From an uncultured Pseudomonadota bacterium (lineage in GTDB: Bacteria; Pseudomonadota; Gammaproteobacteria; Steroidobacterales; Steroidobacteraceae), in NCBI GenBank assembly GCA_946479515.1, contig CAMLGF010000030.1, forward strand, positions 1-40,136: a stretch of 40,136 nucleotides of DNA. Reading direction: 5' to 3'. The notes below the pieces were generated by a model, which was not told the DNA's origin, did not search any database, and worked only from the letters and a program-made list of their open reading frames with translations. Both the position numbers and the translations under genes were made by a program. Positions 10,332 to 33,745 of the stretch are shown here, in pieces; position 1 is the first letter of the stretch, and each line of letters opens with the position of its first letter.

Positions 10332-10721
10332 ATGGCCCAGGACCAGCAGCAACTGCCCGACATCAAGCTCGATGCCACGCAACTGTATCGCGAGGAGATC
10401 TTCACCGACCGCAAGGCGGGGACGCTGCGGCGGCTCACACCGGTGAAGTCCGATGGCAGCGACGATGCCTCGCGCCCGGTCCTGTTCTCGGGGCAGACCC
10501 AGCTGCTGACGCCCATGGGCGTGCTGCCGCTGGCGTTCGAGCTCGACGCCACGACCATCGAGGACGCCTGCGCCAAGTTCCCGGACGCCGTGAAGGTGGC
10601 CATCGAGCAGGCCATTGAAGAAGCACGCGAGATGCGCCGCGAGCAGGCCTCACGCATCGTCGTCCCCGAAGCCGGCGGCGCCATGGGCGGCCCCCCCGGC
10701 GGCGGCCGCATCAAGCTTTAA
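10332..10721 (+). CDS. Conserved hypothetical protein downstream of mutT
   Basis: Reading frame of 129 residues, 14 bases after mutT and probably co-transcribed with it. I do not recognise a named family. The first 95 residues look like a compact mixed alpha/beta domain, including RKAGTLRRLTPVKSDG and QTQLLTPMGVLPLAFELDA. They are followed by a charged helix (VKVAIEQAIEEAREMRREQA) and a flexible Gly/Pro-rich tail. There is no signal peptide or membrane segment, so it is probably cytoplasmic. Codon use matches its neighbours. Its TAA overlaps the stop of the converging peptidase gene in a shared TTAA (10718-10721). Confidence 0.7.
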   Translation: MAQDQQQLPDIKLDATQLYREEIFTDRKAGTLRRLTPVKSDGSDDASRPVLFSGQTQLLTPMGVLPLAFELDATTIEDACAKFPDAVKVAIEQAIEEAREMRREQASRIVVPEAGGAMGGPPGGGRIKL

Positions 10722-15311: not shown

Positions 15312-15359
15312 TGTCACAGAGGCACCCGCTGCATGCGCGGTGTTCGCACAGACCGGATC

Positions 15360-15432
15360 TCAGCCCGACGGGATCCTCTCAGCATATCGCCCGACCGCCG
15401 GATCGCAGGCTCTGAAGTAGTTGTGGTGTGAT
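15360..15432 (-). pseudogene. Frame-shifted remnant of another Rhs core end
   Basis: Read on the minus strand in a different frame from the surrounding Rhs fragment, this segment gives HHNYFRACDPAVGRY followed by a few residues and a stop. That is a decayed copy of the core end NYFRDYDPAVGRY found at 15520-15590 and again in the second Rhs gene. It lies exactly where the toxin tip should be and looks like a displaced orphan tip or core end left by recombination. Confidence 0.6.
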
Positions 15433-15489
15433 CGACGAGAAGGCCAGTTGGATCGTCAAGAGAGACTGGGTTCGCGTTAACGCAAAGGT

Positions 15490-16037
15490 ACGTGTTGAGG
15501 CCGCCAGCCAGTCTGATGGGGTCGCTCTGCACGTATCGCCCAACGGCTGGATCGTAGTCTCTGAAGTAGTTGTAATGCAGCCCGACGATCTCATCGTACT
15601 GCTGCCCCGCGAACCGCAAGCTGTAAACGAACGCCCCCAGTGAGGACGGGTTCTCATCCGGCGCCGTGGTGCCGAACGGATCCGAGTCCCACCGCCAGCG
15701 GATGTTGTTGGCCGTATCCGTGACCAGCCTTGGCGTGTTCAGGTGATCGGCATGCACGTAGTACACGACCACTCCCCCTGATCCATCCGGGCGCAGCGTG
15801 GTCACGGGCGTGTCGCCCAACCACACGGTCTCCTGGATCAGGTCCCCGGCGCCGGTGTACTCACCGGCCAGATGCCCGGCCTCGTCGTACACGTAGAGCG
15901 TGGTGACGCCGCCGTGGGTGACGCTGGTCATGCGGCCGCGGTGGTTGTACGTGAACGTGGCGCCGCCGAAGGCCAGCGTGTTGCCGGCGTTGTCGTAGGC
16001 GTAGCTGCGCGCGAGCGAGCCTGCGATCGAGCTCACG
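15490..16037 (-). repeat. Rhs core direct repeat, copy 1
   Basis: Same orientation as the copy at 17420-18042 and clearly similar in both DNA and protein. The proteins share GSLAR, YNHRGRM, VHADHLNTPRLVTD, NIRWxW and the RYVQSDPI end. Copy 2 has an extra segment around YNALGQRVKRSTSTET. Recombination between the copies would delete the PLA2 tip and the ankyrin gene. Confidence 0.75.
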
Positions 16038-16443
16038 CGGTTGCTGGTGGGGGAGTTGGCGTAGCTGCTCGGGCTGCTGCCGGTCTCGCTGAGGCGGTTG
16101 CCGTTGGCGTCGTAGGTCCAGCCCTGGGTCACGCTGGCCGAGGTCGCCGAGGACAGCCGGTCGAGGGCGTCGTAGCCGTAGTTCCACGACAGCGACGGGT
16201 CCAGCGCATCGTCGATGCCGGTGATGCGGAACGCGTCGTCGTAGGCGTAGTTCTTGAGGCTCGCGCCGTTGGCGTTGTCTACCTGCGTCACCTTGCCGTC
16301 GGCGTCGAAGCCGGGCCCCAGACACAGACGGGAAAGCCGATGTGAATACAGGTCACGAATATGGCCGAACTGTTCGGACTCGTAGCTCACGCAATGCGAA
16401 TCATGGCACCGGGTTGCGATTCGACGAATGTAGAATGTTCGCG

Positions 16444-17055
16444 TTACTCGCGGGCTCCATAACGCCTCAGTACCTCTTCAACTCTTGAATGGCGTCCTTG
16501 CACGGCCCGAGTGAGGGCGGTGCGGCCATCTTTTGCCCGAGAATCCAGGTCCGCGCCGGCCGCAACGAGCTGTTCCACCACTCGCTCATGGCCTTTCCAT
16601 GCTGCGAATATCAGCGGCGTATACCCATAGCGTTCTTCTGAAGTGTTCGGATTAGCGCCAGCCTTGATTAAGGCGTCGACAATTTCATCCTGCCCCAAGT
16701 ACGAAGCCTGCATTAGCGGAGTGTTTCGACCAATGCCTTCAAGATTTGGCGACGCACCTTTGGACAACAGATATTGAACGATTGCGACGTGCCCATTTTC
16801 AGTTGCACGCAATAACGGCGAATCCAAAGTGGCCGGCAACTGCGCGTTAACTAGGTCAGCCCCTGACCCCTCGACGATTCTTCGGACGGATCCCTCGTCA
16901 CCAGTTGCACAAGCATTCATGAGATCTACAAGAGTGTCCGTTCTTGAGTCCGAGCCGCCTGTTACAGCTGGACCTCCAGCAGGCGATTCCAAGCCACAGC
17001 TGCAAAGAACCGCAGTCGCCAGGACCATGACTAGAATGAATTGTAGTCGCAGCAA
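16444..17055 (-). CDS. Ankyrin-repeat lipoprotein, probable immunity protein
   Basis: About 203 residues. The TTG at 17055 is chosen because it has a strong ribosome-binding site (AGGAG, 5 bases away) and gives a lipoprotein signal ending LATAVLCSC, with the lipid Cys near residue 20. Four to five ankyrin repeats follow, for example NGHVAIVQYLLSKGASPN, GQDEIVDALIKAGANPN and GHERVVEQLVAAGADL. The gene starts inside the last codons of the PLA2-tipped Rhs gene (25-base overlap), the usual arrangement of a toxin and its immunity gene. A lipid-anchored periplasmic location would suit protection from a phospholipase acting on membranes. Base composition is less GC-rich than in flanking genes, suggesting transfer. 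The immunity role is inferred from context. Confidence 0.8.
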   Translation of the reverse strand: MLRLQFILVMVLATAVLCSCGLESPAGGPAVTGGSDSRTDTLVDLMNACATGDEGSVRRIVEGSGADLVNAQLPATLDSPLLRATENGHVAIVQYLLSKGASPNLEGIGRNTPLMQASYLGQDEIVDALIKAGANPNTSEERYGYTPLIFAAWKGHERVVEQLVAAGADLDSRAKDGRTALTRAVQGRHSRVEEVLRRYGARE

Positions 17056-18047
17056 TTGCTCTCCTTTTGTGCCGCAATATAGGCCCCGCGCCCACCCCAC
17101 CTAAGTGCCAGGAAATACCTAAGAGCCAGCTTTCTGCAGATGCTGAATTCCCGGGCATCGAGAAGGTGCGGATTCTTGCATGCATCTCGCGCATCCTTCA
17201 GAAAATCCAAGTCGCAGCTCCAACGGCTTCTTCCGCAAGTGCCGTAGCATGCATCGTGGTTGCGGCACGCGAAGTAGAAGCTGAAGGTGCCGTAACTCAT
17301 CGGAAACTTTTGTCCTCCATCAGCACCGCAAATACTGGGGCCGGTGAGTGATGGACCCCAATCCAATCCGTCTCCTGGCACACTCGTGCTCAAGCCGCGT
17401 TGGTCAATTTTGCTATTCGGTTGAACGTTCGCATATGCATAGGTGTTCAGCCCTCCCCTGAGTCCAATCGGGTCCGATTGGACGTACCTGCCTACCGCCG
17501 GATCGTAGTCCCTGAAGTAGTTGTAATGCAGCCCCACGACCGCATCGTACTGCTGCCCCGGAAACCTCAAGTTGTAAATGAACGGACCGAGCGATGATGG
17601 ATCCTCATTGGGCACACGAGTGCCGAACGCATCCGACTCCCAGCTCCAGCGGATGTTGTTGCTGGTATCGGTGACGAGCCGCGGGGTGTTGAGGTGGTCG
17701 GCGTGAACGTAGTACAGAACCACGCCGCCGGAGCCATTCGGGCGCAACGTCGCGATGGGCATGTCCCCCAGCCACACGGTCTCCTGCACCAGCGAGCCAG
17801 CCGCATCGTATTCGCCCACGAGATGCCCGGCCTCGTCGTAGACGTAAAGCGCGGTTTCAGTCGATGTCGAGCGCTTCACGCGTTGGCCGAGCGCGTTGTA
17901 AATATAGGTCGCAGTGACGCCGCCGTTGCTCGCGGTGAGCATGCGGCCTCGGTGGTTGTAGCTGATCGTCGCGCTCCCGTAGCTCAACGTGTTACCGGCG
18001 CTGTCATAGCCGTAGGTGCGCGCGAGTGAGCCCGAAATCGAGTTCAT
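17031..18047 (-). CDS. Rhs core fragment with phospholipase A2-like toxin tip
   Basis: A 338-residue protein from ATG 18047. Residues 1-200 are the end of an Rhs shell (YDSAGNTLSYG, VHADHLNTPRLVTD, NYFRDYDPAVGRYVQSDPIGL). After the DPIGL boundary the tip (about 205-338) is Cys-rich and resembles secreted phospholipase A2. It has CGADGGQKFP, then the catalytic His264-Asp265 in CRNHDACYGTCG, then CDLDF and further cysteines. Such tips would hydrolyse membrane phospholipids. The N-terminal delivery part of a real Rhs toxin is missing; the frame is open back to the zapD stop codon at 18111 but has no better start. An overlapping ankyrin lipoprotein gene follows. Whether the fragment is expressed or is an orphan tip module is uncertain. 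Confidence 0.8.
   Translation of the reverse strand: MNSISGSLARTYGYDSAGNTLSYGSATISYNHRGRMLTASNGGVTATYIYNALGQRVKRSTSTETALYVYDEAGHLVGEYDAAGSLVQETVWLGDMPIATLRPNGSGGVVLYYVHADHLNTPRLVTDTSNNIRWSWESDAFGTRVPNEDPSSLGPFIYNLRFPGQQYDAVVGLHYNYFRDYDPAVGRYVQSDPIGLRGGLNTYAYANVQPNSKIDQRGLSTSVPGDGLDWGPSLTGPSICGADGGQKFPMSYGTFSFYFACRNHDACYGTCGRSRWSCDLDFLKDARDACKNPHLLDAREFSICRKLALRYFLALRWGGRGAYIAAQKESNCCDYNSF
17420..18042 (-). repeat. Rhs core direct repeat, copy 2
   Basis: Second copy of the Rhs core DNA described at 15490-16037, in the same orientation, ending at the conserved core boundary just before the PLA2 tip. Confidence 0.75.
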
Positions 18048-23829: not shown

Positions 23830-24315
23830 TCAGGCGCCGGTGCGGCAAACCTGCGGGAGATACTTCTCGTCGAGGGTGCCGGCGGTCGGGTCGACCGGGG
23901 TCGAGATGCCCGAGGGCGTGTCGTGCGCGCCGCAAATCCAGGCCACATCGCCATTGATGCTGGTGCCCGGGGTCAGGATGGCGGTATCACCGTCGATCTT
24001 CGTGTTCGCCTGCTTGCCGTAGGCAATCGTGATGACGCCGCTGGCCACGGTCACGGAAGTCACATACTTGCCCGTGATCGCGCTGGGGCTGCCGATGCCG
24101 GCCGCGGTATTGTCAGCCGGGAACGCGCCGGTATTCGCATAGACTTCGGCCACCGAAGCCTTGGCGGGGGCCGCCAGGTTCATGCCTTCCGTCACCTGCG
24201 AGCGGATCGTGTAGTCCTGGTAGGCCGGGATGGCGATCGCGGCCAGGATGCCGATGATGGCAACCACGATCATCAGTTCGATGAGCGTGAAGCCTTTTTG
24301 AGTAGCCTTAATCAT
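23830..24315 (-). CDS. pilA: Type IV major pilin PilA
   Basis: Type IVa pilin precursor of 161 residues. The ATG at 24315 has AGGAG 8 bases upstream and gives a short leader (MIKATQKG). Cleavage after Gly8 exposes [20 protein letters not shown], with the Glu5 needed for assembly. The region before the disulfide is short. Cys128 and Cys157 form the C-terminal D-loop near the end (QVCRTGA). An in-frame extension to 24408 would place the leader internally and is rejected. A sigma-54 promoter lies 77 bases upstream. The adjacent phosphotransferase-like genes raise the possibility that this pilin carries a phospho-modification. Confidence 0.97.
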
Positions 24316-24391: not shown

Positions 24392-24407
24392 TGCAATCGC
24401 GGTGCCA
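24392..24407 (-). promoter_or_regulatory. Sigma-54 promoter of pilA
   Basis: On the minus strand the site reads TGGCAC, 5 bases, TTGCA, so the invariant GG and GC are exactly 10 bases apart (consensus TGGCAC-N5-TTGCA). Transcription would start near 24381, leaving a leader of about 65 bases. The window also encodes the matching NtrC-type activator PilR and sensor PilS. Confidence 0.88.
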
Positions 24408-24477: not shown

Positions 24478-24498
24478 AAGTGACCAATTTGGTCACTT
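24478..24498. promoter_or_regulatory. Perfect palindrome upstream of pilA (operator or terminator)
   Basis: AAGTGACC, 5 bases, GGTCACTT. It is centred about 107 bases upstream of the predicted pilA start of transcription, a distance suited to a sigma-54 activator such as PilR. It also spans the stop codon of the upstream sulfatase-fold gene and is followed by T residues on the plus strand, so it could instead be a terminator hairpin. Confidence 0.45.
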
Positions 24499-26610
24499 TT
24501 TGACGCTGGGCGGAATAGTTTGGTCCTGATTGGCGACAGGGATTCCGGCGACAGCTTGCCGGTGCAGCAGTACGTCGTCGAACTGCGCGTGCAACGCATC
24601 CCAGAGCGCGCGCAGTTCCGGCTCCTCTGCCGCCGGTTGGCTCGTCAGGCGCCGAAGTGCGCCATCCCTGAGGCGCGCTGCCAGGTAGTTGTAGCCCGCC
24701 CCGTCGAAGTTCGGAAAAGCCGCGACCAGGTATTCGGCGCCCACGGCGGCGTATTCCCTCTCCATGAGCAGGTTCTTCAGCAGGGACTCCTTCACGCTGA
24801 CCCGGTCGGTCGACGGATCGATGCTGTAGACCCGCATCGCTTCGCGCATCTTGTCGGCATCGATGTGTCCTTCCTGCGTCGCGAAACCCACCGGCATCTG
24901 GTACTCGGTCTCCATGAAGCGGACGCGCCCGGCAAACGCCTGCTCAGCCCCTTCATGTCCCTCGATCAGGGGTAACAGCGAGCGACCGTCGAAGCGGCCA
25001 GGGGACTTCACACCGAGCATCTCGTGGATCGTCGGTGCGATGTCCTCGAATGACACCGCCGCCGATACCGTCGGTACCAGCCGAAGATCGCCACCGAAAC
25101 GGCGTACGCCGAGCATGATGTGGTACTGATCCAGTGCGAGCACGGAGGTGCCGTGCCCCCAGGCGGGCCTGCTCAGGCTGAGCTCCTTCATGATCGGGTT
25201 GTCGTCGGAGGCGATCGCCTGGTCGGGCGCGTCGAACGTTTCGCCATGGTCGGAATAGACGACGACAATCGCGTTCCGCAGCAGACCTTTGTTCCGCAGC
25301 ACCTCGAGTATATCGCCCATCTGCTGGTCCACACGATGCGCGGCCGCCAGGTAGTAAGGCGGCCAGCGTGCAGTCTTGTCGCCCACCTTGGGCGGCGCGC
25401 CCGCCCAGCTGTAGGGCCAATGGTCCAACGTGAGATGCACGGTGAGGAACAGGGGCCGCGTCGGCCGCAGTTCCCGTTCGATCCGCGTCACGAAGGAATC
25501 CGGGTCGTAGCTCTTTGCCACGCCCCGATTCGCATGCGCATGCGGAAACAACCAGCTTCCCAGGCGGGTGTTCATCACCAGATTGCTGAGGGGCGTATCG
25601 ACCACCTTCTCGATCAGGAACTCGGACGCGCCGATCGGGGGAGTGATGGTCTGCTCGAAGCCATAGGACGTATCGATGTTCGCGAAACGGACTTCATCCA
25701 TCGCATACACCGTCTCGTATCCCAGCTGGGCCAGCGTGCGGGGCAGGGAATCGGTGTCATCGATGACCTCGCGCGGCAGCAGATTCATGATCGCGCCGGA
25801 ATGGTGCGGATGCCGGCCGGTCAGCATCGCGAGCATGGAAGGAAAGGTACGGGCCAGAGGTGTCAGGGCGTTGCTGAATCGTGTTCCGCCTTTCATGAAC
25901 GCTTCCACGTTCGGGGTGGCGTGCGGCGACAGTCGCTCGTCGACGAGATCGGCGCGCAGCGAATCGAGCCCGATCAGGATCACATTGGGTTTCGCGGCGA
26001 CGACCGGCGCCATCGTCTGATGACGCGAAAAGGCCGCGAGGCCGATGGAAGATATGCAGGTGGCCGCGAGTATCGTAATCGACTTGCGGGAAAGCCGACC
26101 GCCGGCATTCCACCAGCGCAGTGACGCGACCGCGGCGGTGAGGCCGGCAGCAGCCAATGCGCAGAACCACAGCCCGCTGCCGAGACGGACGCCAAGCAGG
26201 GCGCGTGTCATGGTCGCCGCATACGGTTCACCGAGCGAACTCGTGGAAAACACCGCGGCGTTGTTTGCCAGCAGGCCGATGGTGATGACGACGAACCAGA
26301 GCAGCAGGTGCTGCCGGGGAGTGGCTTTCAGGGACGGCCAGGCGGTCACCGACATTCGCGCGAGCACCCAATAGGCGAGCCCGAGCAGCGCATGCAGGAA
26401 GACCATGGCCAGTGAAAAGAACACCAGGTTGTAACCCAGTTTGGACCCCCAGATCGGGCCCGCGAACACCGAGTCGAGCACGTGATCGTGAAACAGCATT
26501 GACTGGCTGTCACCCACGATGCGCGCGTAGGACAGCAGCAATAGAAGCAGGGCCAGACCTTGGGCGGCCAGCAAGCCGTCGAAGCGGCGAGGTGAAGTAG
26601 CGGGGTTCAT
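24493..26610 (-). CDS. Membrane-anchored sulfatase-fold protein with Thr nucleophile
   Basis: A 705-residue member of the alkaline phosphatase/sulfatase superfamily. Four to five membrane segments (about 13-30, 58-85, 100-120, 140-165 and 178-195) precede a periplasmic catalytic domain. Metal-binding motifs are seen as NVILIGLDSLRAD (Asp216) and, later, VVVYSDHGETFDAPD. The sulfatase CxPSR signature is replaced by TFPSM (Thr255) before LAMLTGRHP. Thr is the nucleophile in phosphoethanolamine and glycerophosphate transferases such as EptA and LtaS, so a phosphotransferase or phosphodiesterase is more likely than a sulfatase. It is directly upstream of pilA and divergent from a CDP-activation operon. 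The substrate is unknown. Confidence 0.85.
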   Translation of the reverse strand: MNPATSPRRFDGLLAAQGLALLLLLLSYARIVGDSQSMLFHDHVLDSVFAGPIWGSKLGYNLVFFSLAMVFLHALLGLAYWVLARMSVTAWPSLKATPRQHLLLWFVVITIGLLANNAAVFSTSSLGEPYAATMTRALLGVRLGSGLWFCALAAAGLTAAVASLRWWNAGGRLSRKSITILAATCISSIGLAAFSRHQTMAPVVAAKPNVILIGLDSLRADLVDERLSPHATPNVEAFMKGGTRFSNALTPLARTFPSMLAMLTGRHPHHSGAIMNLLPREVIDDTDSLPRTLAQLGYETVYAMDEVRFANIDTSYGFEQTITPPIGASEFLIEKVVDTPLSNLVMNTRLGSWLFPHAHANRGVAKSYDPDSFVTRIERELRPTRPLFLTVHLTLDHWPYSWAGAPPKVGDKTARWPPYYLAAAHRVDQQMGDILEVLRNKGLLRNAIVVVYSDHGETFDAPDQAIASDDNPIMKELSLSRPAWGHGTSVLALDQYHIMLGVRRFGGDLRLVPTVSAAVSFEDIAPTIHEMLGVKSPGRFDGRSLLPLIEGHEGAEQAFAGRVRFMETEYQMPVGFATQEGHIDADKMREAMRVYSIDPSTDRVSVKESLLKNLLMEREYAAVGAEYLVAAFPNFDGAGYNYLAARLRDGALRRLTSQPAAEEPELRALWDALHAQFDDVLLHRQAVAGIPVANQDQTIPPSVKK

Positions 26611-26629
26611 CGATGCGACTTATAACAAA

Positions 26630-26643
26630 GGGGCTTCGGCCCC
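26630..26643. other. GGGGC-TTCG-GCCCC hairpin in the divergent promoter region
   Basis: Perfect 5-base stem closed by a stable TTCG tetraloop, midway between the divergent sulfatase-fold gene and the cytidylyltransferase operon. On the minus strand it is followed by TTTG. It may be an RNA leader hairpin or a barrier between the two promoters; no clear operator was seen in the remaining 26611-26740 bases. Confidence 0.3.
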
Positions 26644-26740
26644 CCAGTGCATGGTGCTCAAATGGAAGTCAAATGCCCGTCGGCCGGATCATGTGATTCG
26701 ACGCACACCGTAGGGGTTCCAGATATGACTTAATGCCGGC

Positions 26741-27721
26741 ATGCGCGTATTTACCACAGGCGTGTTCGACATACTCCATCGAGGGCATTTGAATATCCTG
26801 ACCCAGGCCGCCGCGCTGGGTGAGCTCACGGTCGGAATCATGACCGATCAGGGGGTCGAGGATACGAAAGGGGTGCGACCCATTCTGTCGTTGGAAGAGC
26901 GCGATGCCCAGATCCGCTCGTTGCCATTCGTAGCCAACGTCATTCACTACACCGACGTCGACCAGCGCGGCAATTATGCGGCGCTGCGTCCGGACATCGT
27001 CGTACAGGGAGACGACTGGTTGTTTTCGGCCGATCGGACCACGGCCATCAATTTTCTGCGCGAGAACTCCATCCGCCTGGTGCTGCTGCCGCGCACCCAG
27101 GGCATTTCGACAACCGAGATCCGTCGCCGCGTGGCGCGCTCGGGGCGCCGCGACGAGCAGATGTTGCGCGAACGTCTGCGCATGGTGCCGGTGGCCGATC
27201 TGCGCCGTTACGAGGCCCACGACGAGACGAAAGTGGCGCGGTTGGTCGCGAAGATCGAGGCGGAAGGAGTGTTCTTCAATCCGCTGTCGGTGGTGCGCGA
27301 GCTCATCGTCATCGATGGCGCGAATCGCTTCGAGGCGCTGCGGCGCCTCGGTGCGCGCCATGCGCCCTGCGTCGTCTACGACTATTCGGACGTGGATCTG
27401 CTCGCCAACGTGCATTTCATCAATGACGGCGTGAAGACCCGCCTGTCGGAATTCGCGCGCGAGCAGGGCGAGCGCATCGAGTTTCCCCGCCGCACACCCG
27501 ACGACATTCGCGCCGCCGTGGAGAAGGGCGAGATCATTCCCAATGGAGAAACCTTCCACCGCGTGCCACTGAGCGTGATCCGGCTGCCGATTCCACTGGC
27601 CGCGCTGCGTGCGGAACAGCCCTTCGAGCTGGGGCCCTTCATCGACCGCCGCATCCGCGATGGCAACGTTCGCTTCTTCCAGTCCAGTGTCTATGTCTGC
27701 GATGAATGGGAACCTGCATGA
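26741..27721 (+). CDS. Cytidylyltransferase fused to a ParB/SbnI-like kinase-type domain
   Basis: Two-domain protein of 326 residues. Residues 1-130 are a small nucleotidyltransferase of the TagD/glycerol-3-phosphate cytidylyltransferase type: GVFDILHRGHLNIL with HxGH at 13-16, and the signature ISTTEIRRR at 122-130. These enzymes make CDP-alcohols from CTP and a phospho-alcohol. Residues 148-290 resemble the ParB/sulfiredoxin fold of SbnI and SerK, free serine kinases: VPVADLRRYEAHDE (Glu158 as possible catalytic residue), NPLSVV, then VIDGANRFEALRRLG and IIPNGETFHRVPL. The natural reading is a kinase and cytidylyltransferase in one chain. First gene of a five-gene operon; its stop overlaps the next start (ATGA). 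The fusion and its role are inferred by eye. Confidence 0.8.
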   Translation: MRVFTTGVFDILHRGHLNILTQAAALGELTVGIMTDQGVEDTKGVRPILSLEERDAQIRSLPFVANVIHYTDVDQRGNYAALRPDIVVQGDDWLFSADRTTAINFLRENSIRLVLLPRTQGISTTEIRRRVARSGRRDEQMLRERLRMVPVADLRRYEAHDETKVARLVAKIEAEGVFFNPLSVVRELIVIDGANRFEALRRLGARHAPCVVYDYSDVDLLANVHFINDGVKTRLSEFAREQGERIEFPRRTPDDIRAAVEKGEIIPNGETFHRVPLSVIRLPIPLAALRAEQPFELGPFIDRRIRDGNVRFFQSSVYVCDEWEPA

Positions 27722-28314
27722 GCACCGAGACCGCGACCAGCTATTGGAAGTCGCAAACGCATTATCCGTTCGCATTCACGCGCCGCAGGCGCATTCACGA
27801 GCTCAACTACCTCGTGCCGCGTCTCGCCGCGACCGGCGGTACCCGCCTCCTGGACCTCGGGTGCGGCGATGGGTCGCTGCTCGAATGCCTGCTGCGCACC
27901 ACCGAGTTCGAAGAATTCCATGGCTACGACGTGGCTGCGGATCTGCTGCGCGACATCGATCCACGCATCAGGACGGCGGTCTATGACATCGCGCACCCGG
28001 GGCCGCTGCCGCGTGTGGATGCGGTCATCGTCGCGGGCGTCATCCAATACATTTTCGACGACGAGGTGGTGGCCGCACTGCTGCAACGGATCGATGCGCC
28101 CATCCTGTGGGTTCGCTCCACCTGCACGTTGCAGCCGCGGCGCGAGCTGGTCGAGAACGATGGCTACGCTTCCTGCTATCGCACCGTGCCGGAGACTCAT
28201 GCGTTGCTCTCGCGGGAGTTCACCGTGAGTTCGGTGGATCGCATCTATCCGGATGAAATCGAATCGGCCTACGGTACCAAGCAATTCTATTTCGAGGCGC
28301 GCCGCCCGCGCTGA
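27718..28314 (+). CDS. Class I SAM-dependent methyltransferase
   Basis: A 198-residue Rossmann-fold methyltransferase. Motif I is LLDLGCGDGSLL (about residues 44-55), followed by the acidic strand end (FHGYDVAADLL) and a later VDAVIVAGVIQYIF motif. The ATG at 27718 overlaps the previous stop codon (ATGA), indicating coupled translation. The size and the absence of membrane segments indicate a soluble small-molecule or sugar methyltransferase. In context it may methylate the activated phospho-compound or the sugar acceptor; the substrate cannot be read from sequence. Confidence 0.85.
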   Translation: MSTETATSYWKSQTHYPFAFTRRRRIHELNYLVPRLAATGGTRLLDLGCGDGSLLECLLRTTEFEEFHGYDVAADLLRDIDPRIRTAVYDIAHPGPLPRVDAVIVAGVIQYIFDDEVVAALLQRIDAPILWVRSTCTLQPRRELVENDGYASCYRTVPETHALLSREFTVSSVDRIYPDEIESAYGTKQFYFEARRPR

Positions 28315-28318
28315 CGCC

Positions 28319-29626
28319 ATGCGGATTTCACGCGCCTTCTGCCTGGCACTTGCGCTCGGGCTCGTAGCCGAGCCGCAAACGGCCTCTGCGTACATCGATC
28401 CGGGTACCGGCAGCGCGCTGTTCTACGTGGTCACGGGCGTCGTGGTGTCGGCGTACTTCGCGATTCGCGGCCTCTACTATCGGTTGCTCGATCTGTTGTT
28501 CCGCGCGCGCTTTCGTCACTCGCGCTGCGCCATCGCCATCCATTGCGAGGATCCGCGCTACGAGATCACGTTTCTGCCCATACTGCAGCACCTGACGGAA
28601 CAGGGTATCGCGCCCACTTTCTTCACGATGTACGAGCGCGACGATACCTTCGAACCTCTGCCAGCCCGGGTCGCTCATCGCGCGATTCCGCCTGGGATGG
28701 TCGGGTACGCATACCTCAATCACATCGAGGCGACCGTGCTTGCCACGACCACGCCGCAGCTCGACGTGATGACGTTCCGCCGGTCGCGTCGGGTGCACAG
28801 CTACGTGATGGTTCAGCATGCGCTGGGCGAGTGTCGCTTCGTCCGTCCCTTCGCCTACGATTACTTCGACGTCGTGCTTTGCTGTGGCGAGGTCCTGAAG
28901 AAGAACATCCGCCGGATGGAGGCGTTGCGTGGTTCCAGGCCGAAGGAATTACTCGATACCGGCCTGCCTCACTACGAGGCGTTGATCGCCCGTCGCGACG
29001 CGGCCCCGGCTCGTTCCGGGCGCACCTGCGTGCTGGTGGCACCGAGTTGGGGGCCGCTCAGCATGTTCGAGGCGTATGGCACCGATTTCATTGCCGGAAT
29101 CGCCCGGCGATTCCAGGTAATCGTGCGACCGCACCCGCAGATGCGGGTGTCGCAGCCATCGCTGTACGCGCGAATTCTCGCGACGCCGGGAGTGGAAGTG
29201 GACACCAGCCGGACGCCTTCCGAGGCCATGTCGCGCGCGGATATCCTGCTCAGCGACATTTCGGGCATCGCCCACGAATTTGCGTTCATCTACGAGCGCC
29301 CCGTGGTGGTGATCGATCGGCACCTCGAACCCGGCGGACTCGAGGGAGAATTGCTGGGCGGCGAGAGCGAGATCAAGCAGCGATGCTCGGCGTTCATCGT
29401 TTCGCTGCCCGGATCGCGCATCGGTGAGGCGTCGGATGAGCTGGCGCGCGTGCTCGAAGCGCACGCGCCCGACCGTCTGCGCCGTGTGCGCGAAGAACTC
29501 ATCTACAATTTCGGTTCCGCAAGCAAGGTGGCTGCATGCCAGCTCGCGGACATATACCGGCGTGAGCTCGCGCTCAGCGGCGCATCCCGGCGCGTGAGCC
29601 GCGTCCTCGGACAGGACGCGGCCTGA
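28319..29626 (+). CDS. CDP-glycerol glycerophosphotransferase-like protein
   Basis: About 435 residues. The N terminus is a signal-like segment ending TASA, followed by the motif YIDPGTGS (25-32) and one membrane span (33-55), which would put the catalytic part in the cytoplasm. The C-terminal domain resembles TagB/TagF-type enzymes that move glycerol phosphate from CDP-glycerol to teichoic acid: APSWGPLSMFEAYG, IVRPHPQMR and ADILLSDISGIAHEFAFIYE, containing the expected RPHP and SD-x-S residues. The ATG at 28319, 5 bases after the methyltransferase stop, is preferred over an overlapping upstream start. In this operon it is the likely user of the CDP compound. Substrate and acceptor are unknown. 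Confidence 0.85.
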   Translation: MRISRAFCLALALGLVAEPQTASAYIDPGTGSALFYVVTGVVVSAYFAIRGLYYRLLDLLFRARFRHSRCAIAIHCEDPRYEITFLPILQHLTEQGIAPTFFTMYERDDTFEPLPARVAHRAIPPGMVGYAYLNHIEATVLATTTPQLDVMTFRRSRRVHSYVMVQHALGECRFVRPFAYDYFDVVLCCGEVLKKNIRRMEALRGSRPKELLDTGLPHYEALIARRDAAPARSGRTCVLVAPSWGPLSMFEAYGTDFIAGIARRFQVIVRPHPQMRVSQPSLYARILATPGVEVDTSRTPSEAMSRADILLSDISGIAHEFAFIYERPVVVIDRHLEPGGLEGELLGGESEIKQRCSAFIVSLPGSRIGEASDELARVLEAHAPDRLRRVREELIYNFGSASKVAACQLADIYRRELALSGASRRVSRVLGQDAA

Positions 29627-30327
29627 TGCTGCACTTCCTGCACGACCTGCTGGTACTGCCGCTGATGCAGCTGTATGCACAGCTGTTCGACCTGCCGAGT
29701 TGGCTGTCGGTGGGTACCCGCATCCTCATCTTCTCGGTGTCCATCAATCTCATCCTCGCGCCTGTCTACGCGCAGATGGAACTGAGGTCCCGCGCGGGCC
29801 GCGCGAAGCGCGCGGCGGTGGCGCAGGACGTGCAGCGCATGCGGCGCTATTTTCGCGGCCGCGAACGCTACTTCTACATCCGGGCCGTCTATCGCCAGCA
29901 CGACTACCGGCCGTTGTCGCAGCTCTGGGCGTCTGGCGACCTGTTGCTGCAAATCCTGGTGTTCGCCTCGGTGTTCCACTTCCTCCACGGTCTCGAGTCT
30001 CTCCGGGGCGCATCCTTCGGGTTCTTGCCCGACCTGTCCAGGCCCGACGGCATGCTCGGCGGGATCAACGCACTGCCGCTGCTGATGACCTTGATCAACG
30101 TCGCCGCCGTCGTGGCATACGTCGAGGACAGCACTCGGCGAGTGCAGGCGGCCGCGCTCGCCTTGTTGTTTCTCGTCCTCCTGTACGCCAGCCCTTCGGG
30201 ACTGGTGCTGTACTGGACGATGAACAACCTGTTTTCGCTGGTTCGCAACCTGTTGAGGCGCCGCGCGCAGTCGGGGGCGGACAGGCCCGGCCTCCGGCCG
30301 CTGGCCGAGCTCCGCGAACAACAATGA
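29626..30327 (+). CDS. Divergent YidC/Oxa1-family membrane protein
   Basis: A 233-residue membrane protein. By eye it aligns with the conserved YidC core: ILIFSVSINLILAPVYAQ (first core span), a basic cytoplasmic hairpin, VYRQHDYRPLSQLW, LRGASFGFLPDLSRPDG and ASPSGLVLYWTMNNLFSLV. These correspond to the E. coli YidC segments VRGIMYPLT, LRQAPFALWIHDLS and PSGLVLYYIVSNL. The groove arginine important in YidC appears to be replaced by Asn41. The large periplasmic domain of Gram-negative YidC is missing. The start overlaps the previous stop (TGATG). A role in inserting or assisting the neighbouring membrane enzymes is possible but unproven; this is not the housekeeping yidC. Confidence 0.8.
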   Translation: MLHFLHDLLVLPLMQLYAQLFDLPSWLSVGTRILIFSVSINLILAPVYAQMELRSRAGRAKRAAVAQDVQRMRRYFRGRERYFYIRAVYRQHDYRPLSQLWASGDLLLQILVFASVFHFLHGLESLRGASFGFLPDLSRPDGMLGGINALPLLMTLINVAAVVAYVEDSTRRVQAAALALLFLVLLYASPSGLVLYWTMNNLFSLVRNLLRRRAQSGADRPGLRPLAELREQQ

Positions 30328-30337
30328 GCCGTCGAGC

Positions 30338-32383
30338 ATGAGCGGCATCGCATTTTTTCTGGGTCTGCTGGCCTCGATGGCCATCTGCCGCCTGCTGGCC
30401 GACACGGTGGGTCGCCGTACCACGCTTCGCGTCGCATGTGGTTCATTGCTCATGAGCGCGGCCGCGCTGGCGACGCTATGGCTCTTTCCCCTGCAGGGCA
30501 CGTTGCCCGCGTTCATCGGTGGCGCAGCGCTCGGCACCGTCGCCATACCGGGTGAAGGACTGCGCGCCCTGACCCAGGGGCTGGCGAATTCGCGACTTGC
30601 CCTGTATCTGCTGTCGGTTGCCACGCTGGCTTCCCTGATCTATCTGTTCGTCCCGATCACGACGTTCCTGACTTCGCCCGGAGAGCTGGGCATCCATCTC
30701 GACTACTTGATGTCCAACAACGCACGTGACGCGGTCACGGTGTTCTACGTGGCCATCGTGTTCTACCTGCTGGCGCCGAACTCCCGCATACGCACCGCGC
30801 TCACACTGCTGTCGCTGGCGGCATTGTCGTTGGCGCTTCTGTATACCTACCTGCTGCCCTTCGGCTATCCCATGATGACGGGCCTGGTGTTCGAACAGGT
30901 CGGCATCGGCGCCACGGACCGATATCTGCGTTTCGCCCTGGATGCCCTGGTGATCGTTCTGGTCGCGCTCGCACTGCGCGCCGCGCTGCTGCGCTTCGGT
31001 GGCAGGCCGTTCGTCGTCGGACTCGTGCTGCTCGACCTGGGGCTTTGTGGAGCGGCGGGCATCGACGTCCATCGCGAGCGCTTTGGTGGCAGCGGTGGTC
31101 TCGAGACCGCGCAGGCGCCGGAGCGTCCGCTGCGATTCTCGCGCAGCGAGCCCAACGTGCTGTTCATCTTCCTGGATCGATTCATGGGCTCGTATGTGGA
31201 AGAAATCCTGCGCGCCGAACCGCAGCTCGCTGCGCGCCTCAGCGGCTTCACCTGGTACCCGCGCACGGTATCGGCGGGCGAGAATTCCATCGCCGGCGTG
31301 CATGGCATGCTCGGCGGCTACGACTACACGCCCGACGCGATCAATGCCCGGCACCGTCCGCTGCGCGACGTGTCTGTCGAAGCCTTCTCCATTCTGCCGT
31401 ACAACTTTTCCCAGAAGGGTTGGCGCGTCAACGTGGTGAGCCCGCGTGGACTCGGTTTCACCATGGCCGGTGATTGCAGTTTCCTTGATTTTTCGGGCGT
31501 GACCTGCACGCACATACCCAAGAGTCTCAGCAGGGTGGCCGCCGGGAAGATGGGATTTCCGCTCATGGATCTCGCCAAGTCGAACTACTCGGAACTGCTG
31601 GAGTTGCTGGGTGCCATGCGCAGCGGCCCTTACGTGACCAAGGAACTGCTCCTGGAGCGCGGGCCCTGGCGGAATTTCCTCGATCATTCCGCGGGCACCA
31701 CGTTCCGCGAGTGGGCGGAGTTGCGTGGCTGGCCGGCGTTGACGGACGTGTCGGCGCCAGGCTCGAACATGAATTTCATCTCCAACATCCTGCCGCACGA
31801 GCCCTACTACATGGGAGAGGACTGCCTGCCGCATCGCTCGCGGCAGATGCCGACCGACGAGGTGCTGGCGTACTTCGGGAACGATTTCGCCTGGGTGCAT
31901 GCGGTGACCGCGCGCTGCACCCTGCTGGCGGTCGCCGACTATCTCGACTATCTGAAATCGCAGGGTGTGTACGACAATACCCGCATTCTCATCGTGTCGG
32001 ACCATGGCATCGTCGGACCGGTCGAGGACAGGTCCTCGCGTGCGCGGGCCGGCGGCACGCAGGCCCCGGAGTTCGTGCGCACGCGCTCGCTGCTGCTGGT
32101 GAAGCCGCGCGCGGCCGCCGGACCTCTGCGGGTCTCCGAGGAATTCATGCCGAATGCCGAAGCGCCGCGAATCGCCTGCGAGGAAATCGGCGGATGCACC
32201 AACCCCTACCTGGGCGGCAGGCCCATTGCGACACTGGGCCGCGACGATCCTTTCCGCGTGACCATCGTGCCCTGGCAGTTCAATCTGCAGAAGCGGGATT
32301 CGTTCATCGTGAAGGAGCAATACCAGCTCATCGGCCGCGACCCCTACGATGCGCGCGGCTGGCAGCGCCTGCCCGCAGATTGA
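30338..32383 (+). CDS. Membrane-anchored alkaline phosphatase superfamily protein
   Basis: A 681-residue protein with about seven membrane spans in the first 240 residues and a large periplasmic domain. The metal-site motif NVLFIFLDRFMGSY (Asp280) and the later ILIVSDHGIVGP mark the sulfatase/phosphatase superfamily. The nucleophile region reads AGENSIAGVHGMLGG, which places a Ser (about 317) at the catalytic position by hand alignment. This layout matches LtaS- or OpgB-like glycerophosphate transferases and related phospho-transferases, though overall similarity is low. Last gene of the operon, 10 bases after the YidC-like gene; it ends 3 bases from the converging pilR gene. Function inferred only at superfamily level. 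Confidence 0.8.
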   Translation: MSGIAFFLGLLASMAICRLLADTVGRRTTLRVACGSLLMSAAALATLWLFPLQGTLPAFIGGAALGTVAIPGEGLRALTQGLANSRLALYLLSVATLASLIYLFVPITTFLTSPGELGIHLDYLMSNNARDAVTVFYVAIVFYLLAPNSRIRTALTLLSLAALSLALLYTYLLPFGYPMMTGLVFEQVGIGATDRYLRFALDALVIVLVALALRAALLRFGGRPFVVGLVLLDLGLCGAAGIDVHRERFGGSGGLETAQAPERPLRFSRSEPNVLFIFLDRFMGSYVEEILRAEPQLAARLSGFTWYPRTVSAGENSIAGVHGMLGGYDYTPDAINARHRPLRDVSVEAFSILPYNFSQKGWRVNVVSPRGLGFTMAGDCSFLDFSGVTCTHIPKSLSRVAAGKMGFPLMDLAKSNYSELLELLGAMRSGPYVTKELLLERGPWRNFLDHSAGTTFREWAELRGWPALTDVSAPGSNMNFISNILPHEPYYMGEDCLPHRSRQMPTDEVLAYFGNDFAWVHAVTARCTLLAVADYLDYLKSQGVYDNTRILIVSDHGIVGPVEDRSSRARAGGTQAPEFVRTRSLLLVKPRAAAGPLRVSEEFMPNAEAPRIACEEIGGCTNPYLGGRPIATLGRDDPFRVTIVPWQFNLQKRDSFIVKEQYQLIGRDPYDARGWQRLPAD

Positions 32384-32386
32384 GCA

Positions 32387-33745
32387 TCACTCGATATCGA
32401 GCTTCTGGATCTTGTAGCGCAGGGCCCGATAAGTCAGGCCGAGTAGCTTGGCGGCCGCCGTCTTGTTGTAACGCGTCTGCTCCAGCGCCTTGATGATGGC
32501 GTCGCGTTCCAGATGCTCGAGCTGGCCGCTCAGGCCGACGGCGACCTCGACTGGCGCGGCGGGGGCCACCGCCGGCGTCGCCGTGCCGCTCACCCGCGGC
32601 GCAGAACGCAAACGGATGTGTTCGGCTTCGATGGTACCGCTGCCGCTGAGCGTGGCGGCGCGTTCGAGGACATTTTCCAGCTCACGAACGTTGCCCGGAT
32701 AGTCGTAACTCTCCAGGGCGTGCCAGGCCTCGGTGCTGAGCGCCAGGCCATGGATGCCCATGCGCTTCTCCAGCCGCCCGAGGATCGTCTCGGCCAGCGG
32801 ACGGATGTCCTCACGGCGCTCGCGCAGCGGCGGTACGCGGATCTCGATCACGTTGATGCGGTAATACAGGTCTTCGCGGAACCGGGCTTCGGCGACCAGC
32901 TCGGCGAGATTCTTGTGGGTGGCCGAGACGATCCGCACGTCGATGGGCGACTCGCGCTGCTCGCCGATGGGCCGTACGGTCTTCTCCTGGATCACCCGCA
33001 GCAGTTTGACCTGCATGTGCAACGGCAGGTCGGCGACTTCGTCGAGGAACAGTGTGCCGCCCTCGGCGGAGGGAATCAGGCCGACCTTGTCGGCGACGGC
33101 ACCGGTGAAGCTGCCGCGCTTGTGTCCGAAGAGCTCACTTTCCATGAGCTCGGAAGGAATCGCGCCGCAGTTCACGGGCACGAAGGGCCCATCGGCGCGC
33201 GGACCCGAGGCATGGATCATGCGTGCCACCAGTTCCTTGCCGGTGCCGGACTCTCCGGAGATGTGGACCGGCGCCTGGCTGCGGGCCACGCGCAGGATGA
33301 GCTCGCGCAGGCGTTCCATTGCCGGCGCATGTCCGATGATCTGCGTGCCGGTGCGCGTCGCCACGGCACCCTCGCTGCTCTGCGAGAGCTTGAGCGCGGT
33401 GGACACGATCCGCCGCAGCACCCCGAGGTCCAGCGGCTTGGACACGAAATCGAACGCGCCGAGCTTGAGCGCGCGCACCGCGGACTCGACGTTGCCATGG
33501 GCGGTGATCACGGCGCACGGCACCCCGGGGCAATTCACCGTTATCCACTCGAGCAGGTCGAGGCCGTCGCCGTCGGGCAGCCGCATGTCGGTGAGACACA
33601 GATCGAACTTGTGCGCCTTGAGAAGTCGCTTCGCGGTCGCGACGTCACCTGCCGCCTGCGTGGCGAGCTGCATGCGTGAAAGCGTCAGGCTGACCAGCTC
33701 GACCAGGTCCGGCTCGTCGTCGACCACCAGCACCAGGGGCTGCAT
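32387..33745 (-). CDS. pilR: Sigma-54-dependent response regulator PilR
   Basis: NtrC-type activator of pilin transcription, 452 residues. The receiver domain has acidic residues at 9-11, the phosphorylated Asp53 (LTDMRLPDGDG) and Lys103. The AAA+ domain has Walker A GESGTGKE at 164-171 and the sigma-54 contact loop GSFTGA at 211-216 (Ser in place of the usual first Ala). A Fis-type helix-turn-helix ends the protein (NKTAAAKLLGLTYRALRYKI). Its start follows the pilS stop with no gap (TAAATG). The sigma-54 promoter of pilA at 24392-24407 is the obvious target. Adjacency to sucC is like that in Xanthomonas. Confidence 0.94.
   Translation of the reverse strand: MQPLVLVVDDEPDLVELVSLTLSRMQLATQAAGDVATAKRLLKAHKFDLCLTDMRLPDGDGLDLLEWITVNCPGVPCAVITAHGNVESAVRALKLGAFDFVSKPLDLGVLRRIVSTALKLSQSSEGAVATRTGTQIIGHAPAMERLRELILRVARSQAPVHISGESGTGKELVARMIHASGPRADGPFVPVNCGAIPSELMESELFGHKRGSFTGAVADKVGLIPSAEGGTLFLDEVADLPLHMQVKLLRVIQEKTVRPIGEQRESPIDVRIVSATHKNLAELVAEARFREDLYYRINVIEIRVPPLRERREDIRPLAETILGRLEKRMGIHGLALSTEAWHALESYDYPGNVRELENVLERAATLSGSGTIEAEHIRLRSAPRVSGTATPAVAPAAPVEVAVGLSGQLEHLERDAIIKALEQTRYNKTAAAKLLGLTYRALRYKIQKLDIE

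Follow-up and report, generated by a model that had tools for sequence, protein, structure and literature searches.

The window analysed here is a 40,136-nt stretch of DNA from an uncultured bacterium of the Steroidobacteraceae (contig CAMLGF010000030.1), in which six open reading frames (ORFs), g1 to g6, lie at 24493-32383 between the pilus genes pilA and pilR. The genes of the locus probably activate phosphoserine with cytidine triphosphate (CTP) and attach it to the pilus or the cell surface, in a membrane-side relative of a decoration known from flagella. The best reading, drawn by analogy, is that it is a pilus-linked, membrane-side variant of the Type A decoration of flagellin with CDP-serine as the donor. 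The fuller proposal, that a phospho-amino-acid tag is made and reaches its acceptor, most likely type IV pilin or its glycan, at the periplasmic face of the membrane, has about an even chance of being right. The evidence consists of gene content, family matches, active-site motifs, fold models and the recurrence of g4-g5-g6 near pilA in related loci, two of which (L089 and L090) have a donor cassette that is homologous to the Pseudomonas aeruginosa flagellin cassette and conserved in order. From these we infer the substrates, the methylation, the acceptor and the role of the YidC paralogue.

Gene content and organization

An initial annotation of the window had placed six genes of a surface-decoration pathway between pilA and pilR. 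All six are present, with the family matches that it claimed:

g1, 24496..26610, minus strand: membrane protein with an alkaline-phosphatase (AP)-superfamily domain (family match Sulfatase/AP fold, 4e-29)
g2, 26741..27721, plus strand: cytidylyltransferase (about residues 1-135) fused to a SerK/SbnI-type domain (about residues 142-326)
g3, 27718..28314, plus strand: S-adenosylmethionine (SAM) methyltransferase (Methyltransf_12, 1e-7)
g4, 28319..29626, plus strand: CDP-glycerol glycerophosphotransferase-like protein, GT-B (Glyphos_transf, 1e-3, under cut-off)
g5, 29626..30327, plus strand: small YidC/Oxa1 paralogue of 233 aa (60KD_IMP (YidC), 5e-18)
g6, 30338..32383, plus strand: polytopic membrane protein with an AP-superfamily domain (Sulfatase, 1e-4, under cut-off)
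pilA, 23830..24315, minus strand: major pilin (Pilin, 2e-23), the candidate acceptor; its start is taken to be an ATG inside a TTG-extended ORF
sigma54-type -24/-12 site, 24392..24407, minus strand: sequence motif upstream of pilA
pilR, 32387..33745, minus strand: response regulator that flanks the block

The g2/g3 junction is an ATGA overlap at 27718-27721, g3 and g4 are separated by 4 nt with the g4 ATG at 28319, the g4/g5 junction is TGATG at 29624-29628 and the gap between g5 and g6 is 10 nt. pilA flanks the block on one side, and pilR and pilS flank it on the other, where g6 and pilR are convergent with 3 nt between the gene ends. The ATGA and TGATG coupling given in the initial annotation stands. 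The arrangement is refined in that g1 lies on the minus strand, 130 bp from g2-g6 and divergent from them, so that the co-oriented run consists of the five genes g2-g6. g1 is codirectional with pilA, which has its own sigma54-like site.

Co-occurrence of the genes within the window's own group was assessed indirectly, from homologue clusters whose longest contigs have identical sizes, among the best 120 matches of each search (86 g2 and 108 g4 clusters on contigs of at least 2.5 kb). g2 and g4 share 38 identical longest-contig sizes, one of which is the window's own, against a jittered null with a mean of 0.6 and a maximum of 5. By this indirect measure homologues of g2 and g4 are found together rather than mostly apart. 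Those of g4, g5 and g6 lie together in the close relatives described below. g1 shares 6 contig sizes with g2 and 7 with g4, to be compared with maxima of 6 and 5 in the null when all contigs are counted, and 4 and 5 on contigs of at least 2.5 kb. Counts of this size do not decide whether g1 is found apart from the others, and its membership in the set is likely but weaker.

A cytidylyltransferase fused to a serine-kinase-like domain

The N-terminal half of g2 matches CTP_transf_like (PF01467, 3e-17), and its nearest solved relative is the Fom1 cytidylyltransferase (37% identity). Judged from its sequence, the C-terminal half is a relative of the free-serine kinases with a ParB/Srx-like fold, which makes specific what the initial annotation had called kinase-like. 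Among the sequences of the PDB this half matches SbnI (7e-8) and SerK (2e-6), and in NCBIfam it matches SbnI at 5e-9 (35.9 of 350 bits) and SerK at 1e-8 (34.5 of 380 bits). The AlphaFold model of g2 has a mean predicted local distance difference test (pLDDT) of 81 and a predicted template modelling score (pTM) of 0.56. Its first match in the PDB is SbnI 5uje (4e-10), the second is the Fom1 cytidylyltransferase and the sixth is SerK 5x0b. Glu158 (E158) of g2 pairs with a Glu of SbnI, and also with SerK position 30 if the ungapped alignment is extended; position 30 is the residue altered in the E30A/E30Q structures listed among the PDB matches. E158 and D192-G-x-N-R196 (D192, G193 and R196 of DGxxR) are invariant in 18/18 aligned g2 sequences, the window plus 17 picked homologues that are 69% or more identical. 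The same holds for H13 and H16 in the cytidylyltransferase half. g2 has the ParB/Srx-type fold, the catalytic Glu position and the DGxxR of SerK and SbnI but differs from them in that the domain is fused behind a cytidylyltransferase. SerK serves cysteine biosynthesis (PMC5120207) and SbnI serves staphyloferrin B biosynthesis. On this sequence evidence g2 is predicted to make O-phosphoserine and then CDP-serine.

It has to be asked whether the ParB/Srx-fold half is a kinase at all. A second explanation is that this half only binds nucleotide or regulates, and that the other half activates glycerol-3-phosphate, phosphoethanolamine, phosphocholine or a sugar phosphate for a teichoic-type or phospho-alcohol decoration. 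The SbnI and SerK scores are far under the curated cut-offs, and a 2025 survey of ParB folds describes a SerK-like archaeal protein that bound CTP and not ATP (PMC12704722); together these mean that the C-terminal domain of g2 could be nucleotide-binding or regulatory. The N-terminal half resembles heptose-phosphate, glycerol-phosphate and ethanolamine-phosphate nucleotidyltransferases, and its top NCBIfam match is a heptose-phosphate adenylyltransferase domain (76.6 of 181.5 bits, under cut-off), so that the nucleotide and the substrate of this half are not fixed by sequence. All of this counts against the serine reading. On the other side, the catalytic Glu and DGxxR are kept in all 18 sequences, a separate SerK-like gene is present in the corresponding locus L091 (below), and g2 misses the cut-off of the glycerol-3-phosphate cytidylyltransferase equivalog (62.1 of 165.4 bits). 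The nucleotide-binding explanation is considered unlikely.

Full-length relatives of g2 were found in the protein collection only. A search there gave 276 matches, and the taxon names among the best 120 are Steroidobacteraceae, Povalibacter and Peristeroidobacter; the few named nearest homologues of the window genes include Steroidobacteraceae, Steroidobacter, Povalibacter and Peristeroidobacter. In a profile search of genome contigs with the g2 alignment none of the 80 best loci was full-length, and heptose-type cytidylyltransferases dominate. g2 was found in 0/369 genomes of a class-level sample at 1e-25 (a zero that carries no weight, the sample being without a positive genome) and in 2/117 genomes of an order-level sample at 1e-20, where both matches are partial and are probable fusions of phosphoenolpyruvate (PEP) mutase, PepM, to a cytidylyltransferase. 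Among plasmids 89 records match g2, none over 80% of its length, and g3, g4 and g6 have no match there; the viral contigs held no relative of g2 or g4. In the open-licence full texts searched, with most subscription papers outside that scope, neither a serine kinase-cytidylyltransferase fusion nor a link between YidC, a glycerophosphotransferase and phosphonates was found.

Transfer and membrane proteins

g3 is, by analogy, a candidate N-methyltransferase of a phospho-amino acid. g4 scores 18.3 of the 22.1 bits required by Glyphos_transf, and so misses the curated cut-off, and its structure model has TagF 3l7i as the first PDB match (7e-11). The N-terminus of g4 has a predicted membrane segment with the sequence YIDPGTGS. 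g4 is a candidate CMP-donor phosphotransferase. Synthesis of teichoic acid by TagD/TagF-type enzymes was also considered, and it was ranked behind the serine reading because g2 and g4 alike score under the curated cut-offs.

g5 matches 60KD_IMP with 66 bits against a cut-off of 35 and is without a large periplasmic domain. Insertases of the Oxa1 family including E. coli YidC have been found to scramble lipids in vitro (PMC10491306, a preprint), and a role as a flippase is on that analogy possible for g5. More plainly, g5 may be an insertase that is dedicated to g6, and this reading is preferred.

Both AP-fold proteins have Thr or Ser where the nucleophile would be looked for, at positions that we take from EptA-type enzymes. 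g1 has about five predicted transmembrane segments, and Thr255 stands at the nucleophile position, within T-F-P-S, in 10/10 aligned sequences; D216, D454-H455-G456 and H486 are also invariant. In g6 the presumed nucleophile position is occupied by Ser317, which is Thr in three distant homologues, and D280 and S554-D555-H556-G557 (SDHG) are invariant. The formylglycine motif of sulfatases is C/S-x-P-x-R. Because g1 lacks this motif and has T-F-P-S with Thr255 throughout, a sulfatase function was rejected for g1, and its sequence makes it a candidate periplasmic phospho-group transferase or phosphodiesterase. g1 and g6 are like the Neisseria PptA / EptA / LtaS-type phospho-group transferases in their membrane-anchored AP fold with Thr or Ser at the nucleophile position. 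They differ from these in being distant from the named models and in that a CDP-donor pathway is encoded alongside them. PptA puts phospho-alcohols on pilin (PMC10434233).

The transfer module recurs near pilA

The outward search was done with g4 because g2 has no full-length relative in the sampled genomes. Three loci of the genus Hydrogenophaga (L089, L090 and L091) keep the order g4-g5-g6, with identities of 61-65, 56-58 and 53-56%, respectively, per gene; g4 homologues occur in 3/67 genomes of the genus of a Hydrogenophaga locus. As in the window, pilA is near, about 2-8 kb from g4-g6 in L089, in L090 and in L091 taken with L097. A TfpX/TfpZ-type pilin accessory gene adjoins pilA (NCBIfam 2e-64 in L089 and 1e-61 in L090; the L097 copy has 67% identity), and in all three loci pilA also has one or two more AP-fold membrane proteins beside it. 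In L089 both of these extra AP proteins match Pfam Sulfatase. Their counterparts in L090 and L091 share 46-76% identity with them, and across the three loci the AP proteins are mutually homologous.

After the module, L089 and L090 have a methyltransferase, a HAD protein and a nucleotidyltransferase, the last of which is of the NTP_transf_3 type in L089. The HAD protein is of the phosphoserine-phosphatase-like kind that would supply the phospho-amino acid in the Type A pathway. No HAD was found in L091. It has a SerK-like gene of 128 residues (NCBIfam SerK 6e-9, under cut-off) between two nucleotidyltransferases. With the fusion in the window this means that a serine-kinase-like protein stands at the HAD step twice, as a separate gene in L091 and, in the window, joined to a nucleotidyltransferase of another class. 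The genes at L091 2011-6662 are, consecutively, a nucleotidyltransferase, the SerK-like gene, the second nucleotidyltransferase, DUF711, a methyltransferase and a cysteate-racemase-like gene (1e-40, under cut-off). This row may hint at a D-configured or otherwise altered phosphoserine.

The HAD protein of L089 led by homology to a cassette in P. aeruginosa with the order flgL, methyltransferase, HAD, nucleotidyltransferase, CDP-glycerol glycerophosphotransferase-family protein and fliC (annotated as B-type flagellin). The methyltransferase, HAD and nucleotidyltransferase of L089 are 40, 48 and 39% identical to those of P. aeruginosa (E 9e-50, 2e-66 and 3e-46), and those of L090 are 37, 43 and 36% identical. 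The gene order is the same in P. aeruginosa, L089 and L090, and the HAD and nucleotidyltransferase genes overlap by 25, 25 and 28 nt. The transferase of the cassette is weakly related to g4 (E 4e-4 for the g4 of the window and 5e-8 for that of L089). From its gene order and annotation the cassette is taken to be PA1088-PA1091. The record, NZ_CP131792.1 (L116), was deposited as an 847-kb plasmid and carries the flagellar flgG-fliC region; it may be chromosomal DNA or a misassembly.

PA1088-PA1091 is homologous to the CD0240-CD0244 cluster for Type A modification of Clostridioides difficile flagellin, a modification that consists of N-acetylglucosamine (GlcNAc)-phosphate-N-methyl-threonine (PMC10714395). 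The authors of that study hypothesize that CDP-threonine is made by CD0242, N-methylated by CD0243 and used by the TagF-like CD0244 for transfer. Like the Type A pathway, the window has a TagF-like transferase, a nucleotidyltransferase, a methyltransferase and a filament-subunit gene nearby, and its relatives L089 and L090 hold a homologous methyltransferase-HAD-nucleotidyltransferase cassette. Unlike it, the window has a fusion of a serine kinase to a TagD/Fom1-type cytidylyltransferase in place of the HAD and LicC-type enzymes, adds the YidC paralogue and the AP-fold membrane enzymes, and has pilA instead of fliC, and a core glycosyltransferase was not seen.

More distant g4 loci and their donor cassettes

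In a wider sample g4-like genes were found in 9/369 genomes at 1e-30. Among 399 genomes of the family of one Hydrogenophaga-genus strain, one besides the centre has a g4-like gene at 1e-40, and g4 was found in 0/11 named-locus genomes. Ten distant loci (L094 and L107-L115) were compared in stretches of 5-20 kb each; the contig of L109 has a length of 5.4 kb, and the g4-like genes of L108 and L115 lie close to the end of their contigs. A YidC-like gene is present in eight of the ten (not L109 or L115) and a cytidylyl- or nucleotidyltransferase in seven (not L108, L109 or L115). An AP-fold protein is also present in eight (not L109 or L111), where the calls in L110 and L113 are Pfam matches under the cut-off and that in L108 was made by homology to g6. 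L110, L112 and L113 are near-copies, with 80-84% identity in g4 and the polysaccharide genes, and are counted as one lineage, so that the ten loci represent about eight.

YidC and AP domains occur in one ORF, an unusual fusion, in L094 (6581-9226), L107 (5900-8779) and L108 (1423-3915). The membrane motif YxDPxxGS is present in all 13 loci outside the window. It is the N-terminus of g4 in seven of them (L089-L091, L094 and L107-L109), and in L110-L115, where the g4-like protein lacks it, it is found in a separate small membrane protein as YLDP(G/S)TGS.

The donor genes next to the module vary. In L094 they encode an aspartate-aminotransferase-like enzyme, a nucleotidyltransferase and a PEP mutase that scores over the cut-off (1e-124). 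L107 has a PEP mutase joined to a cytidylyltransferase (1.7e-125, over cut-off), LicD, a phosphonopyruvate decarboxylase-like gene that stays under its cut-off and a further cytidylyltransferase whose fusion partner is a weakly PhnW-like domain (1e-16, also under the cut-off). At L107 10108-13772, on the minus strand, the two cytidylyltransferase fusions flank the decarboxylase-like gene, in what looks like a compact pathway for CMP-aminoethylphosphonate (CMP-AEP). L114 combines a nucleotidyltransferase with a PhnW/AepZ aminotransferase that scores over the cut-off (1.9e-109), and a match to PEP mutase lies about 1.9 kb ahead of the aminotransferase. In L111 a PPDK_N/PEP-utiliser protein, a Peptidase_C26 and a nucleotidyltransferase lie beside the g4-like gene, families that we take to correspond to Cj1416-Cj1418 of Campylobacter, and the set is possibly of the phosphoramidate type. 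PEP mutase is over the cut-off in 4/10 of the distant g4 genomes, beside g4 in three and on another contig in G202; G103 has two partial matches under the cut-off. The background is 2/46 genomes, for a Fisher p of 0.007 (4/10 vs 2/46) or 0.018 (4/13). The cassettes and these counts indicate that the module goes with small CMP-activatable phospho- or phosphono-compounds. The broader claim of the initial annotation, that a CDP-activated phospho-compound is moved to a surface structure, is well supported by the comparison.

A third explanation follows the donor genes and has a phosphonate-type donor, CMP-phosphonoalanine or CMP-AEP, in the window as well. It is in keeping with the PEP mutase counts and with the presence beside g4, in L094, L107 and L114, of PepM and variously decarboxylase-like, aminotransferase and nucleotidyltransferase genes. 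The window shares CMP activation of a small phospho-compound with the PntC/Fom1-type phosphonate cytidylyltransferases (PMC6697681), and PepM in some related g4 loci is a further likeness to these enzymes and the phosphonoglycan loci. Against it, tblastn at 1e-2 found no relative of PepM, the decarboxylase or the AEP transaminase in the 40-kb window, PepM is over the cut-off in 0/3 Hydrogenophaga-genus genomes, and a serine kinase would have no point. Members of the module that are linked to pili appear to do without PEP mutase. In the window a phosphate ester is predicted and not a phosphonate, and a phosphonate donor is very improbable.

The initial annotation had likened the locus to the Campylobacter methyl phosphoramidate capsule pathway (Cj1415-Cj1418 and Cj1421/1422; PMC3907429), with which it shares the logic of a kinase, a cytidylyltransferase and a transferase. 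None of the six genes encodes the PEP-synthase-like kinase or the C26 hydrolase of that pathway, a search of the window for relatives of the L111 kinase found none, and a possible set of this type lies beside a g4-like gene in one distant locus only, L111. The Type A phospho-amino-acid decoration of flagellin, which had not been named, is the closer relative.

Proposed pathway and choice of acceptor

With CDP-serine as the donor, a pathway of five steps can be proposed by homology. The SerK-like half of g2 would phosphorylate L-serine to O-phospho-L-serine and the cytidylyltransferase half would convert this to CDP-serine. g3 would then methylate CDP-serine, by analogy on the amino group. The membrane-anchored, TagF-fold g4 would donate phosphoserine from CDP-(N-methyl)serine to a lipid carrier or lipid-linked acceptor at the cytoplasmic face, and finally, at the outer face, movement and transfer of the group would fall to the YidC paralogue g5 and the AP-fold proteins g6 and g1. 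Why should a pilus-linked pathway have membrane proteins that the flagellin cassette does without? Flagellin is open to modification while it is still in the cytoplasm. Pilin, in contrast, is lodged in the inner membrane, and its head projects to the outside. Modification of pilin after its insertion into the membrane would explain the extra membrane proteins. This topology draws on the predicted membrane segment of g4, on the Thr/Ser nucleophile and metal-ligand motifs of the AP domains and on the YidC-AP fusions elsewhere.

Several results weigh against this pathway or its link to pilin. The resemblance of g3 to the methyltransferase in the flagellin cassette of P. aeruginosa is weak (24% identity, E=1e-6). 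The PDB matches of the g4 model that come after TagF are other GT-B enzymes with similar scores. No relatives of the HAD or LicC/NTP_transf-type enzymes of L089 were found in the window (1e-2 for HAD), and tblastn at 1e-4 shows no similarity between g1 and the AP proteins that the Hydrogenophaga-genus loci encode. Family matches revealed no glycosyltransferase among the six genes other than g4. TfpY-like proteins of P. aeruginosa assist in the assembly of pili without being modification enzymes themselves (PMC11841053), which speaks against a role in pilin modification for the TfpX/TfpZ-type genes. Finally, pilA was not found at 1e-4 in any of the ten distant loci, within their stretches of 5-20 kb.

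The last of these points bears on an explanation in which the CDP-serine chemistry is the same, the acceptor is lipopolysaccharide, exopolysaccharide or lipid, and the proximity of pilA reflects a shared insertion site. L110, L112 and L113 are exosortase-A type polysaccharide loci with nucleotidyltransferase, g4-like, YidC-like and AP-like genes, called as such by family match in L110 and by identity to L110 in the other two, and phospho-decoration of an exosortase-associated polysaccharide is possible there. These loci, the absence of pilA from the distant ones and the lack of a glycosyltransferase dedicated to pilin all agree with such an acceptor, and the first two mean that the module is not pilus-specific. 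A match to a sigma54 regulator in L094 (38% to pilR) was counted as a paralogue and not as linkage to pil genes. The arguments against this acceptor are that pilA lies close to the module, in the window as well as in the three Hydrogenophaga-genus loci, and that in the latter it is adjoined by the TfpX/TfpZ-type gene and further AP proteins. The link to pilin made in the initial annotation is supported by these three loci, but in the ten distant ones pilA was not found within the stretches compared. An acceptor other than pilin is considered somewhat unlikely.

Other features of the window

Two Rhs-core fragments lie at 15317-16390 and 17034-18047 on the minus strand, in or beside a region where GC is lower (0.58-0.59 at 16-18 kb). 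The small ORF at 16447-17100 has a weak MzaA-like match under the cut-off. At 10721-13090, on the minus strand, a large protein matches the family of the lasso-peptide isopeptidase Atxe2, also under the cut-off.

Significance

Phospho-form modification of pilins is already known. The donor used by the pilin transferase PptA has been described as a knowledge gap, with phosphatidylcholine as one suggestion (a 2023 survey of phosphorylcholine, PMC10434233). In the window a CDP-donor pathway, a transferase and AP-fold enzymes are found together beside pilA, which makes the question of the pilin donor directly testable. A fused serine kinase/phosphoserine cytidylyltransferase is a further prediction from the locus. 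CDP-L-serine as such has precedent, being cited, with CDP-L-glutamine, as reported from other prokaryotes (PMC10714395).

It is suggested, tentatively and with considerable doubt, that the locus belongs to a wider envelope-tagging system. Interchangeable cassettes (serine kinase-cytidylyltransferase fusion, HAD-cytidylyltransferase, PepM or phosphoramidate-type) would supply CMP-activated phospho- or phosphono-amino compounds, a TagF-fold enzyme would load them on a membrane carrier, the dedicated YidC paralogue, fused to its AP partner in some species, would bring them through the inner membrane as a lipid scramblase and not a protein insertase, and AP-fold enzymes would transfer the group to pilin or glycans. 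If true, such a system would be a candidate answer to where the transferases of pilin phospho-forms obtain their donor. The pilus-linked, CDP-serine reading of the locus would widen Type A-like decoration with amino acids beyond flagella in the direction of pili, and it gives a member of the YidC family a likely role tied to one pathway.

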